Assembly (NCBI GenBank): GCA_903844155.1
Contig: CAIMSU010000344.1
Location: 1 to 36,298 of the forward strand
DNA from: an uncultured Pseudomonadota bacterium
GTDB taxonomy: Bacteria; Myxococcota_A; UBA796; SXON01
DNA length: 36,298 bases
Direction of reading: 5' to 3'
This document shows, piece by piece, positions 1 to 36,298 of the stretch. Below the pieces are notes generated by a model that had not been told where the DNA came from, searched no databases, and was given only the letters and a program-made list of their open reading frames with translations. A program made the translations under genes and the position numbers. The first letter of the stretch is position 1; every line of letters starts with the position of its first letter.

Positions 1-71
1 GCGCAGTTGCTCGAAAGCCAAGGCGCCACGAGAATAAACAGCCAACACCGGACCGAAGGGTCCGGTGTTGG
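1..71 (+). repeat. Repeat family A, tail of an upstream copy (A0)
   Basis: This stretch matches the last part of copy A1 (72-266): both share a GGCGC..ACG..AA.AAACAGCC run-in followed by a hairpin. The hairpin here is perfect, with 13-nt arms at 42-54 and 59-71 and a GAAG loop at 55-58. The window edge cuts the copy, so its left end is not visible. The match to A1 and to the copy at 26175-26379 is direct. Whether the hairpin is a terminator, a translation-control element or part of a mobile element is not decided by the sequence. No T-run follows it, which argues against a classical intrinsic terminator. Confidence 0.7.
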
Positions 72-266
72 ATGGCCAAGGAGAAGGCGCGACTTCGAGC
101 CCTGCACGAAGCGTGCCTTCGACGCGGTCAGCAGCGGTCGCGCTCGCCGGAACCTGCGCAGGTGTGGACTCGTCAAGGGAGGTCACGAACACAGGTCCCA
201 GCCGGAAAACATGGCGCGACGGGCAACAAACAGCCATCACCGGACCGAAGGGGCCGGTGATGGCTG
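72..266 (+). repeat. Repeat family A, copy A1
   Basis: A unit of about 195 bp, in tandem with A0 and homologous to the minus-strand copy A2 at 26175-26379. Conserved blocks are GGCCAAG (74-80), GAAGGCGCGACTTCG (83-97), a small palindrome GCACG-aag-CGTGC (104-116), CGGTCAGCAGCGGTCGCGC (from about 125), and the terminal hairpin (arms 231-243 and 254-266, GAAG loop). The distance from GGCCAAG to the hairpin ATG is 186 nt here and 188 nt in A2, so spacing is kept although the central 80 nt has diverged. Both copies can be read as a small peptide early on, but the reading frame changes between start and end and substitutions are not mainly synonymous. A structured non-coding repeat is therefore the better reading. 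Confidence 0.7.
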
Positions 267-21053: not shown

Positions 21054-23099
21054 ATGCAAACCCTTTCGCTGCGTCCTCTCGCCTCGGCCACCCGCCTCCT
21101 CCCGGCGCTCGTCATCGCGCTCGCTCTGGCGGGTTGCGCGCCGGGCGGCTCCAAGGGGACCACGCAGCAGCCCAACCAGGTGATCACCTACGCCGACTCC
21201 GATGGCGACGGCATCACCGACTTCGATGAGGGGTTCGTCGACCCGAACTCCCCCACGGCGGACAGCGGCGGCCCCACCGTCTCCGTCGACACGGATGGCG
21301 ACGGCACGCCCGACTACCTCGACCTCGACTCCGATGGCGACGGCATTCCCGACCAGCTGGAGGCCGGCGACACCGACCCGCTGACGATGCCCTTCGACTC
21401 GGATGGCGACGGCATTCCCGATTACCGCGACCTCGACAGCGACAACAACTGCATCCCGGACGAGACGGACGGCCAGGCGGATCTCGACGGCGACGGCATC
21501 ATCGACTCCTCGGACCTCGACGACGACGGGGACGGGATCCTCGACAGCGTGGAGATTGGCGCCGACTGCGCCATCCCCGACTCTGACGGCGACGGCACCC
21601 CGGACTACCAGGACCTCGACTCGGACGGCGACGGCGTTGGCGACGTGTACGAGGCCGGCACCACCCCCTGGGCGACGACCCCGCATGACAGCGACGGGGA
21701 CGGCATTCCCGACTACCTCGACACGGACTCGGATGGCAACGGGATCCCGGACGGCACCGAGGACGGTTGCTCCGGCCCCTCCGACGTCCCAAAGGACACC
21801 GATGGCGACGGCATCATCGACTCGGCGGACATGGACAACGATGGCGATGGCGTCCCCGACCTGCAGGAGGTCACCCTCGGCACCGACATGAACAACCCCG
21901 ACACCGATGGCGACGGGTTCACGGACGGCGCGGAGGTGGCGGCGGGCACCAGCCCGACGGACCCCAACTCGGTGATCAGCGGCATCTACGTGACCGTGCC
22001 CGAGCGCACGACGGTCGAACAGAGCTTCGAGTTCACGTTGAACGTGAAGATGGGCGACGTGATGTTCATGATCGACACGACCTGCTCGATGAGCAGCACG
22101 CTCACCGGCATGTCCAGCCAGTTCTCGGGCATCGAGACCGGCCTGCACACCGCGCTCCCGGACGTCGAATTCGGCGTCTCGCAGCACGACGACTACCCGT
22201 ACACGGGCATGGGCACGTCGGGGATCGACCACCCGTTCGCGCTCGATCAGCAGATCACGGACGACACCTCCGCGGTCCAGACCGCGCTCTCGCGCTTGTC
22301 GATCCACAGCGGTGGCGACACGCCCGAGTCGAGCATGGAGGGCCTCTACCAGGTCCTGACTGGCGTCGGCTACGACATGAAGTGCGATGGGCGGTTCGAC
22401 TCCTCCACGGACGTCAAGCCGTTCATGTCGAGCGCTGGCGACCTTTTCGGCGGCTCCGGCGGGCAATACTACAACGCTTCCACATCGGGGGGTGCGACGG
22501 GGGTTGGCGTCGGCTTCCGGCCGTACGCGCTCCCGATCATCATCTACGCGACAGACGCGCAGATGCGCGACAAGACCGCCCCCTACCGGGACGCGCAGGC
22601 GGTTCCGCCGCAGGCCTGCAACAATGCCACCGAGGCCGAGGTTGCGACGGCCGCCAAGAACATGGGGGCCTACCTGATCGGCGTTTCGGTCGGCGGCAGC
22701 TCGACGAACTCGGCGTACGCGCAGATGAACACGCTCGCGGCAGACACCAACTCGCTTGATTCATCGGGGAACAAGCTGGTGTATACGTGGTCGGGCAGCT
22801 CGGCGACGCTGAAGACCACGATCATCAACGCGGTGACCGATCTCGTCAGCGCCGTGCGGTTCTCGACCGTCACGCTCGTTCCGGACGACCCGTACGGGTT
22901 CGTTACCGGCATCGACCCCTCCAGCTACGACATGTCGGGCAGCCCCGACGGCGAGACCGTCAGCTTCAACCTGACATTCCGCGGCGCCGTCCCCGCTGGA
23001 ACGACCGACCAGACCTACCACGTCGCGCTGAACGTGCTCGGCGACGGCACCGTGCTCCTCGACACGCTCGACATCTACATCGTCGTCCCCGGGAAATAA
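21054..23099 (+). CDS. Lipoprotein with thrombospondin type-3-like Ca-binding repeats and a VWA domain
   Basis: 681 aa. The signal ends in IALALAGC (Cys28), giving a lipoprotein. Residues about 47-300 consist of some 14 Asp-rich repeats of the type 'DSDGDGIPDYxDLDSDGDG', as in thrombospondin type-3/Ca-binding stalks. A VWA-like domain follows: VMFMIDTTCSMSSTL (Asp341) is a MIDAS-like DxTxS variant, then FGVSQHDDYPY, ALSRLSIHSGGDTPESSMEG (metal-coordinating Thr region), PIIIYATDAQMRD and AYLIGVSVGGS. A beta-rich C-terminus (VSFNLTFRGAVPAG) completes it. It probably sits on the cell surface, using Ca2+ to stiffen the stalk and the VWA domain to bind a protein. It is the first gene of a three-gene unit; the next ORF begins 1 bp after its stop. 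Confidence 0.88.
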   Translation: MQTLSLRPLASATRLLPALVIALALAGCAPGGSKGTTQQPNQVITYADSDGDGITDFDEGFVDPNSPTADSGGPTVSVDTDGDGTPDYLDLDSDGDGIPDQLEAGDTDPLTMPFDSDGDGIPDYRDLDSDNNCIPDETDGQADLDGDGIIDSSDLDDDGDGILDSVEIGADCAIPDSDGDGTPDYQDLDSDGDGVGDVYEAGTTPWATTPHDSDGDGIPDYLDTDSDGNGIPDGTEDGCSGPSDVPKDTDGDGIIDSADMDNDGDGVPDLQEVTLGTDMNNPDTDGDGFTDGAEVAAGTSPTDPNSVISGIYVTVPERTTVEQSFEFTLNVKMGDVMFMIDTTCSMSSTLTGMSSQFSGIETGLHTALPDVEFGVSQHDDYPYTGMGTSGIDHPFALDQQITDDTSAVQTALSRLSIHSGGDTPESSMEGLYQVLTGVGYDMKCDGRFDSSTDVKPFMSSAGDLFGGSGGQYYNASTSGGATGVGVGFRPYALPIIIYATDAQMRDKTAPYRDAQAVPPQACNNATEAEVATAAKNMGAYLIGVSVGGSSTNSAYAQMNTLAADTNSLDSSGNKLVYTWSGSSATLKTTIINAVTDLVSAVRFSTVTLVPDDPYGFVTGIDPSSYDMSGSPDGETVSFNLTFRGAVPAGTTDQTYHVALNVLGDGTVLLDTLDIYIVVPGK

Positions 23100-25753: not shown

Positions 25754-26182
25754 TCAGTGGATGTAATAACCCGAGACGCGCCAGGTCCCGTCAGGGTCCT
25801 TCATCGGCGTGACCGTCTCGGTCGCAGTCGGCAGGTTCGCGAACGCGGACTTGTAGACAATGACGACGTAGTCGCCGGCCGGGGCGTTCGGGAGCGTGGT
25901 CGTGGTGGTCGACGTCCACAACGTCCGCGACTTCATGGCGCCAACCTGCGTTCTTGTCGCCCCGACGACCTGTGTCCACCCGTCGTGGGTGACGGCTGCG
26001 CGGAAGAGCGCGGCCGCGGTGTCATACGAAGCGCCGTAGTCGCCGGCGTCCACGAGCGCGAGCCAGTCCAAAGCTGCCTGTTGCGCCGGTCCGTGCTGGG
26101 CAGCCGCGGTCGAAGTGGAAGGCGGGACCTGCGCGCCCGGCGTTGGCTCCCCCGCGAACGCCATCGCAAACAACGCGGCCAT
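25754..26182 (-). CDS. Secreted DUF4019 protein
   Basis: 142 aa. A signal peptide (MAALFAMAFA, cleavage about AFA/GEP) and a short Pro/Thr linker precede a domain of about 95 residues with the DUF4019 layout: ALDWLALVDAGDYGASYDTA, FRAAVTHDGWTQVVGATR, MKSRTLWTSTTT, DYVVIVYKSAFANLPTATET and the end DPDGTWRVSGYYIH. Family function is unknown. I chose the ATG at 26182 because GAGGGG lies 6 nt before it; GTG at 26185 and ATG at 26164 are alternatives. Both the Shine-Dalgarno (loop) and the ATG (3' arm) belong to the terminal hairpin of repeat A2, so the repeat forms the 5' leader of this gene. Confidence 0.82.
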   Translation of the reverse strand: MAALFAMAFAGEPTPGAQVPPSTSTAAAQHGPAQQAALDWLALVDAGDYGASYDTAAALFRAAVTHDGWTQVVGATRTQVGAMKSRTLWTSTTTTTLPNAPAGDYVVIVYKSAFANLPTATETVTPMKDPDGTWRVSGYYIH

Positions 26183-26379
26183 CACCGGCCCCTCGGGTCC
26201 GGTGATGGCTGCTTCTTGCTGGTCGCGCCGCAGTCCTTCAGCGAGGAGGTTTGTTCACGAAATCGGTTGCCACATCTGCACCAGCGCCGGGACCGGCTGA
26301 GCGCGACCGCTGCTGACCGCGCCGAACACACGCTTCGTGCGGGGCACGAAGTCGCGCCTTCAACTTGGCCAGTCAACAT
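26175..26379 (-). repeat. Repeat family A, copy A2
   Basis: Minus-strand copy of the repeat seen at 1-266. It fills the gap between the DUF429 stop (26385) and the DUF4019 start. Shared blocks with A1 include GGCCAAG (starting 26370 on the minus strand), GAAGGCGCGACTTCG, GCACGAAGCGTG, CGGTCAGCAGCGGTCGCGC and the terminal hairpin (arms 26178-26188 and 26199-26209). Small internal palindromes are kept. An open frame runs from ATG 26379 to a TGA overlapping the DUF4019 ATG (TGATG), but the corresponding frame is broken in A1. Confidence 0.7.
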
Positions 26380-26384
26380 CGCCG

Positions 26385-34909: not shown

Positions 34910-34944
34910 CCGCCGGGGTGAGGCCCCGCACCGCCAGCGCTGCC

Positions 34945-35147
34945 GCCGATCCCGGCGCTCGGCACACCTCGCACCGGCCTCGGCGGTCAATTCTCGCCGT
35001 TCCAAGGCGACGAACCCCGCCAGCCGGCGAAGACGCCGCCTGTCACGGTTCGTGCGCGGAACAGCGGGCTGGGGGCCAATCCGTCTGGCCATCTTCGCAC
35101 TACAGGGGGATACAGACGCTTGGTTTGCCGAGCGTGCGGACTGGCCC
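34945..35147 (+). repeat. Repeat family B, copy B1
   Basis: First of two tandem units of 203 bp. Both units begin GCCGATCCCGGCGCTCGGC and share GTTCCAAGGC.ACGAACCCC and GCCAGCCGGCGA. The last 75 bp (35073-35147) form a palindromic module bounded by GGGCCAATCCG and CGGACTGGCCC, with an inner stem ATCTTC (35091-35096) / GGGGAT (35106-35111). The unit starts 36 bp after the ferritin-like stop. No gene is seen in it; reading frames across it lack known domains. Confidence 0.75.
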
Positions 35148-35351
35148 GCCGATCCCGGCGCTCGGCACACCTCGCGCCAGCCTCGGCGCTGAATTCCCGC
35201 AGTTCCAAGGCCACGAACCCCGCCAGCCGGCGAGTGCGCCAGCCGGCACCGAACGTGCGGGGAACGCCGCGCGGGGGGCCAATCCGACCAGCCATCCACG
35301 CGATTTCAGGTGGATACAGACGCCATGTTTGCCGAGCGCCAGCACTGGCCC
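35148..35351 (+). repeat. Repeat family B, copy B2
   Basis: Second tandem unit, directly abutting B1. The palindromic module spans 35276-35351; its outer arms are less perfect than in B1 or B3, but the inner stem is perfect: ATCCAC (35294-35299) / GTGGAT (35310-35315). Shares TGGATACAGACGCCATGTTT-type sequence with B1 and B3. It ends 13 bp before the small lipoprotein gene. Confidence 0.75.
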
Positions 35352-36098: not shown

Positions 36099-36270
36099 GG
36101 GCCAATCCGTGCGCTCGGCAAACATAGCGTTCGCATCCACCTGTAGTGCGGCGGTGGCTGGTCGGATTGGCCCACCGCGCGGCGTTCCATGCACGTTCGG
36201 TGACGGGCGCCGTACTCGGCGGCTGGCGGCGAACGTGGCCTCGGAACGCCGAAAAATCAACGCCGATGCC
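36099..36270 (-). repeat. Repeat family B, copy B3 (inverted)
   Basis: Minus-strand copy beginning 2 bp after the stop of the Imm22-like gene. Its 75-bp palindromic module (36099-36173) has perfect 11-bp outer arms (GGGCCAATCCG / CGGATTGGCCC) and an inner CCACC (36137-36141) / GGTGG (36153-36157) stem. Beyond it, CACCGAACGTGC, GGAACGCCGCGCGG and AGGCCACG match B2 in reverse orientation. The window ends shortly after, so the full extent is not visible. Confidence 0.72.
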
Positions 36271-36298
36271 GGCGCGGTCGGGCGTCCGCGCCCGACGC

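Follow-up and report, generated by a model that had tools for sequence, protein, structure and literature searches.

Repeat Copies in the Window

The window analysed here is the whole 36,298-nucleotide stretch of contig CAIMSU010000344.1 (host contig C344). Its left edge holds the cut 3′ tail of one copy of a repeat (A0) followed in tandem by a complete copy (A1), and a third copy (A2), complete but diverged, lies on the opposite strand at the 5′ end of a DUF4019 gene (Table 1). This arrangement of a tandem pair and a distant inverted copy had been described in an earlier note made by reading the letters of the window, and it is real: the inverted-repeat arms of A1 and A2 align at 88% (63-145 with 26299-26381) and 87% (213-267 with 26175-26229). 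The repeat unit exists as proposed, with its exact ends slightly corrected to run from TG to TG. The tandem period of A0 and A1 is 192 nt because one TG is common to the adjoining copies. The right-hand TG of A2 is mutated to CG. The inventory of A0, A1 and A2 was correct in itself; absent from it were dozens more copies, two sibling families (B and C), a fixed target and the position of A2 relative to the DUF4019 gene. In the host genome 25 segments of the repeat are found at contig ends; the window begins inside a copy because copies sit at such ends, and the contig break at its edge is thus accounted for by the copies there.

Two side features of the window were recorded. A second repeat occupies 34943-35301 and 36099-36276, with two direct 156-nt copies (83%) and one inverted copy at a spacing of about 200 nt. 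It contains GGATACAGACGC..GTTTGCCGAGCG and is probably located in coding sequence. At 21183-21936 a large ORF carries calcium-binding repeats of the DSDGDG type (thrombospondin type 3-like), arranged in an array.

Table 1. Copies of the repeat and associated features in the window.
Feature	Position	Strand	Evidence or remark
A0, 3′ tail of the upstream copy, cut at contig end	1-74	+	repeat alignment
A0 P3 hairpin	39-74	+	finishes on the TG (73-74) with which A1 begins
A1, full-length family A copy of 194 nt, from TG to TG	73-266	+	covariance-model match, E 1.8e-53
A1 P1, hairpin at the 5′ end with an outer helix (TGGCC/GGTCA) below a long upper stem	73-130	+	folds, helix counts
A1 P2, 5′ strand GTCGCGC, pairs with 214-220	137-143	+	fold, helix counts; a different perfect helix takes its place in family B
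A1 small conserved hairpin of the middle domain, TTGA-N4-TCAA type	165-176	+	73.7% of cells paired in family A (weak); intact in B
A1 P2, 3′ strand GCGCGAC	214-220	+	fold, helix counts
A1 A-rich linker; read on the minus strand, a terminator-like T-rich tract that follows P3 immediately	221-230	+	
A1 P3, terminal hairpin CAGCC...GGCTG	231-266	+	other copies have several different sequences here, nearly all of them paired
DUF4019 gene; present start (GTG 26185 or next ATG) inside P3 of A2	25754-26185	-	Pfam DUF4019, E 7.9e-34
A2, diverged family A copy of 196 nt, complete	26176-26371	-	model match, E 1.6e-43
A2 P3	26176-26211	-	fold
A2 P1	26314-26371	-	fold

Copy Number, Subfamilies and Distribution

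The host assembly searched has 8.13 Mb in 375 contigs, and copies were collected by BLAST and with two covariance models (R1 and R2). The family A repeat is no chance resemblance: a BLAST search of the host genome gave 56 matches, with E values as low as 1.7e-103. In total, about 75-77 copies or fragments were found at about 62 places in the host sequence examined, so that the further copies on which the earlier note had staked its reading are plentiful. They fall into three subfamilies with 54 (A), 20 (B) and three (C) segments. Of the 33 full family A copies, 31 measure 194 nt from one TG to the other, while family B measures 197 nt and family C about 196 nt. The corresponding net inserts are 192, 195 and 194 nt. 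Selection for in-frame insertion, suggested by net lengths that are a multiple of three in A and B, was discarded as C (194) does not fit. Among incomplete copies the 3′ end was lost in six and the 5′ end in one.

None of 378 further genomes of the phylum, among them four congeners and 17 family members, gave a match to model R2. When model R1 was run on 70 genomes of the class besides the host, the only matches were weak and at chance level; those in G005 and G051 (E 0.002-0.008) were taken as chance. A DNA search of 93 relatives had no match except two short, chance-like ones. The sequences behind the weak matches in G049 and G018 were read individually and look like chance coding sequence. 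Plasmids, phages and viral contigs, each searched by single queries or exact patterns only, gave no match. Among the genomes compared, the family thus seems confined to one species. In Rfam there was no match above the gathering threshold in the window and, over the copies, only matches at chance level (E up to 5), in agreement with the earlier impression that no named family fits.

A Conserved Three-Domain Fold

The three subfamilies share one architecture: a 5′ hairpin (P1), a domain closed by a long-range helix (P2) and a terminal hairpin (P3). The fold energies of A1 (z = -5.7) and A2 (z = -4.9) beat all of 200 dinucleotide shuffles, and one family B copy reaches z -9.7 against shuffles. 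In each of the A, B and B plus C alignments the covariation score is higher than in 500 out of 500 shuffles, which ignore shared ancestry. Compensatory double changes affect five pairs in family A, all in P3, eight pairs in P1 and P3 of family B, and 16 pairs distributed over P1, P2, P3 and the small hairpin when B and C are aligned together. The fraction of paired cells, 91-97%, drops to at most 45% once the partners are slid. Comparison of A with B shows an inner P1 stem and a P2 helix that are different throughout with the pairing kept, the whole P2 helix of A having given way to another perfect helix in B. These significant compensatory changes in the A, B and B plus C alignments support one half of the earlier proposal, that of a structured RNA. 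The wobble cells of P1 are nearly all G-U, not A-C, when read on the plus strand; this points to the plus strand as the folded one. P3 sequence types are common to A and B, as if terminal hairpins had been exchanged between the two families.

Ends, Target and Arrays

The ends of the element are defined by a dinucleotide. Family A copies have TG on the left in 31 of 32 cases and on the right in 30 of 32; full copies begin (T/C)GG(C)C and finish with GGCTG or a close variant. Their target is YGGS^TGC, in which YGGS stands outside the left end and is followed by the TG, and the base after the right-hand TG is mostly C (position -4, Y (C or T), 23/24; -3, G, 23/24; -2, G, 21/24; +1, C, 21/26). The element's own 3′ end, TGGC^TG, resembles this target. 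Family B also has TG on both sides. The full copies of family C, three in number, all have TA on the right; on the left TA stands in two of them, and copy L142 has CC. TG or TA is all that matches between the two ends, so any duplication is of 2 bp at most. Terminal inverted repeats are absent: the end TGGCCAAG and the reverse-complemented 3′ end, CAGCCATC, do not correspond. The feet of P3 read CAGCC/GGCTG or TAGCC/GGCTA. All 15 adjacent pairs of copies are arranged head-to-tail in the same orientation, and wherever a joint is complete a single dinucleotide is common to both copies.

Insertion Sites and Host Genes

About 83% of the examined host sequence is called coding, and 11 of the 37 copies with good flanks lie inside called genes (the gene calls are rough). 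Most copies are intergenic and some interrupt genes. In the RecQ gene (L027/L155) the copy is found in a variable linker and the frame is open throughout its 872 codons; the insert is absent from the RecQ orthologues of relatives. These orthologues, together with the dispersed copies with exact ends, uphold the other half of the earlier proposal, a mobile non-coding element. Antisense to the element, an open frame also runs through the copy in a sulfotransferase gene (L009) and in the gene of a coiled-coil protein (L033), and through both copies in a membrane-protein gene (L031), where the second copy is 3′-truncated. In family A, 30 of 31 copies leave one antisense frame open; three host genes use this frame, which shows no synonymous bias. 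The gene of a B12-binding radical SAM protein (L026) receives a stop codon from its copy. A cobalamin riboswitch (RF00174, E 2e-26) was detected near this interrupted gene, at L026:101-316 on the minus strand.

When the DUF4019 flanks are joined over one TG core, a start MLTALFAMAFAGEP... appears in the frame of that gene. A2 thus appears to have inserted at codon 3, and the restored start suggests that the present start codon was probably supplied by P3 of A2. Two other copies (L149:929-1125 and L044:1750-1943) abut the starts of sbcD-like (RVLHVSDTHLGIR) and tsaD-like (MIVLGIETSCDD) genes, where P3 occupies the expected position of the ribosome-binding site.

Nature of the Repeat and Alternative Explanations

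We are highly confident that the repeat is a mobile structured one, a non-autonomous DNA unit of about 195 bp that has a three-domain fold and encodes no protein. That it moves at present we infer from the copies alone. The fuller account, in which a mover acting in trans targets the element to sites like its own 3′ end, is the best overall explanation and is held with moderate confidence.

The copies could instead be a mobile transcription terminator or RNA-processing signal, in which the minus-strand P3 and its T-rich tract stop transcription from the 3′ side and selection keeps the useful copies. Of the first eight minus-strand bases after P3, 4-6 are T in each of the A copies listed, and this in a genome rich in GC; the first 700 bases of the window have three terminator-like sites on the minus strand versus 0.7 in shuffles; copies may indeed stop transcription entering from the 3′ side. 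However, the neighbouring gene reads towards that end in about 16 of 26 extragenic copies (a hand tally, not significant), the T-tract is absent at the plus-strand end, and P1 and P2 are left unexplained. Termination would furthermore be an effect on neighbours, which is no alternative to mobility and gives no reason for the spread of the copies. As an account of what the repeat is, we find it unlikely.

The odds are slightly poorer again for a multicopy functional host small RNA or riboregulator whose mobility is secondary. Covariation and the one-strand G-U bias in P1 are what such an RNA would display, as are the conserved unpaired motifs GTCACGAACACGCG and the A-rich linker, but the sequence is missing from the four congeners and 17 family members, copies interrupt genes and occur in both orientations relative to genes, and a sigma-70 scan of the first 700 bases found no promoter-like site.

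A SINE-like retro-element, its RNA copied in trans by a reverse transcriptase, is improbable. The unit is structured and RNA-like and the genome has two reverse transcriptase loci, one of them retron-like; yet the excess of 3′ losses (6) over 5′ losses (1) is the opposite of target-primed reverse transcription, neither reverse transcriptase contig carries a copy and both enzymes score below the group II maturase cut-off. The retron-like reverse transcriptase (L168/L169, host contig C314) has 528 aa, and its best padloc matches are RT_other and RT_XIII.

There is very little to recommend a self-splicing or bypassed insert that is removed from mRNA: removal of the copy from L026 restores the B12-binding radical SAM motif RRGCPFSCAYC, but the radical SAM reading seems to lose frame downstream, the copies in L009, L031 and L033 are antisense to the gene, and there is no group I or II match. 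The intron reading taken from L026 was consequently dropped. A protein-coding repeat is just as implausible in spite of the open antisense frame of A and its in-frame use in three genes, given that synonymous changes in that frame (0.31) show no excess over the other frames (0.22-0.35), variation is even across codon positions and the open frame of family B is a different one; the absence of synonymous bias in every frame of the copies agrees with the non-protein reading made at the outset.

Proposed Mechanism and Candidate Movers

For the mobile structured repeat that we favour, an enzyme supplied in trans would recognise the folded ends of the element, cut between S and TG both at the left target and at the 3′ end of the element, and the cut element would then be joined to a new TG. 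The end of each copy would itself serve as a preferred target, so that new copies would land behind old ones and build the head-to-tail arrays.

HUH single-strand transposases act on hairpin-marked ends and a short fixed target. A member of this class, following the logic of IS200/IS605, TnpA_REP or IS91, is the most likely mover, a choice that we make tentatively: hairpin-marked asymmetric ends, no inverted repeats and no real target duplication would fit such chemistry. TnpA_REP cleaves C|T beside a hairpin, with a tetranucleotide at the hairpin foot contributing to the choice of site (PMC8266576). Two Y1 transposase genes that resemble the REP-associated type (L091 and L092) are present in the host, both below the NCBIfam cut-off. 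The arrangement typical of a RAYT, a Y1 gene flanked by the repeat, was found for neither, L091 being flanked by a different REP and L092 having no adjacent copy; no enzyme could be linked to the element in a search that covered Y1 and IS110 transposases and reverse transcriptases. Among the copies found by the covariance models there was no transposase-carrying relative with the same ends. Orientation with respect to the lagging strand, judged by GC skew, gave 34/57 (p = 0.18) over all and 10/12 (p = 0.04) in strongly skewed regions, and a lagging-strand insertion bias is not established.

The REP next to L091 belongs to a separate system. Inverted dimers of ATCAAAAGCGACGTCGTCNNTTTTGAT stand on either side of its RAYT gene (L091 1207-2298, host contig C268), and about a dozen ATCAAAAGCGACGTCGTCNNTTTTGAT-like units were counted in about 1 Mb of host sequence (L201, L214, L221, L223, L237). 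In L214 one pair of the ATCAAAAGCGACGTCGTCNNTTTTGAT type is located 56-87 nt from an A copy.

A site-specific or other recombinase is the second choice of mover, and a rather doubtful one. The matched dinucleotide could also be the 2-bp target duplication of a DDE-type transposase. An IS110 bridge-RNA reading was rejected: the IS110 transposase (PF01548) had no match in the host, with 4 of 14 control genomes positive, and in a guide-loop test complementarity between the element and its flanks was not above permutation. We consider it unlikely that the copies stem from an undescribed transposition system in which the three-domain folded nucleic acid would be the substrate, deposited head-to-tail at its own 3′ end, the bodies A, B and C would be interchangeable and carry exchangeable terminal hairpins, and insertion would donate hairpins, start codons or in-frame peptides to host genes.

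Comparison with Known Systems

IS200/IS605 and IS91/Helitron-like elements have end hairpins, no inverted repeats, a fixed left target that resembles the right end, and head-to-tail arrays. The ends described here share these features, but in the present element P3 reaches to the extreme end. The integron attC core (RYYYAAC / GTTRRRY) was not seen in the P3 feet, judged by eye.

The classes that the element is most like are bcr1, REP and the Rickettsia palindromic elements, but for each of these, and for MITEs, it lacks at least one defining feature tested. The bcr1 RNA, too, folds. The bcr1 and group A repeats of the Bacillus cereus group are lineage-restricted, present in tens of copies and 100-400 bp long, and bcr repeats are suspected of site-specific mobility at a short motif (PMC6542083). 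Whereas the mobility of bcr is tied to TTTAT motifs, the element has a TG or TA dinucleotide, the YGGS^TGC target and exact head-to-tail arrays, and no TTTAT motif in its end and target profile; a relationship to bcr repeats is neither shown nor expected. REPs provide a second comparison class (PMC3733652, PMC8266576). REP/REPIN sequences mobilised with TnpA_REP (RAYT) have hairpins with an asymmetric foot as found here (PMC8266576), but they are 20-40 nt long with GTAG or CGTC tags, whereas the present element has 194-197 nt, three domains and an STGG foot in A and B. GTAG at the P1 foot was found in two subfamily C copies only.

Rickettsia palindromic elements are palindromic repeats of about 150 bp that lie in frame inside protein genes, and MITEs serve as a further comparison class (PMC10969869). 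RecQ and two or three other genes of the host likewise keep their frame open through the copy, but most copies are outside genes and at least one (in L026) breaks its gene. The element is like MITEs (ERIC, BOX, Correia) in being short, non-autonomous, mostly intergenic and structured with a species-specific copy number, and differs from them by the lack of terminal inverted repeats and in that any duplication is of 2 bp at most.

The repeat is a new, lineage-specific family of about 195 letters and of a known general kind. Bacterial genomes are shaped by small non-autonomous repeats, many of which are moved by enzymes that, to our knowledge, nobody has identified. In the present family the ends, target, array joints and fold are known to single-base precision, and sibling subfamilies have matched end and target dinucleotides, which makes candidate enzymes directly testable.
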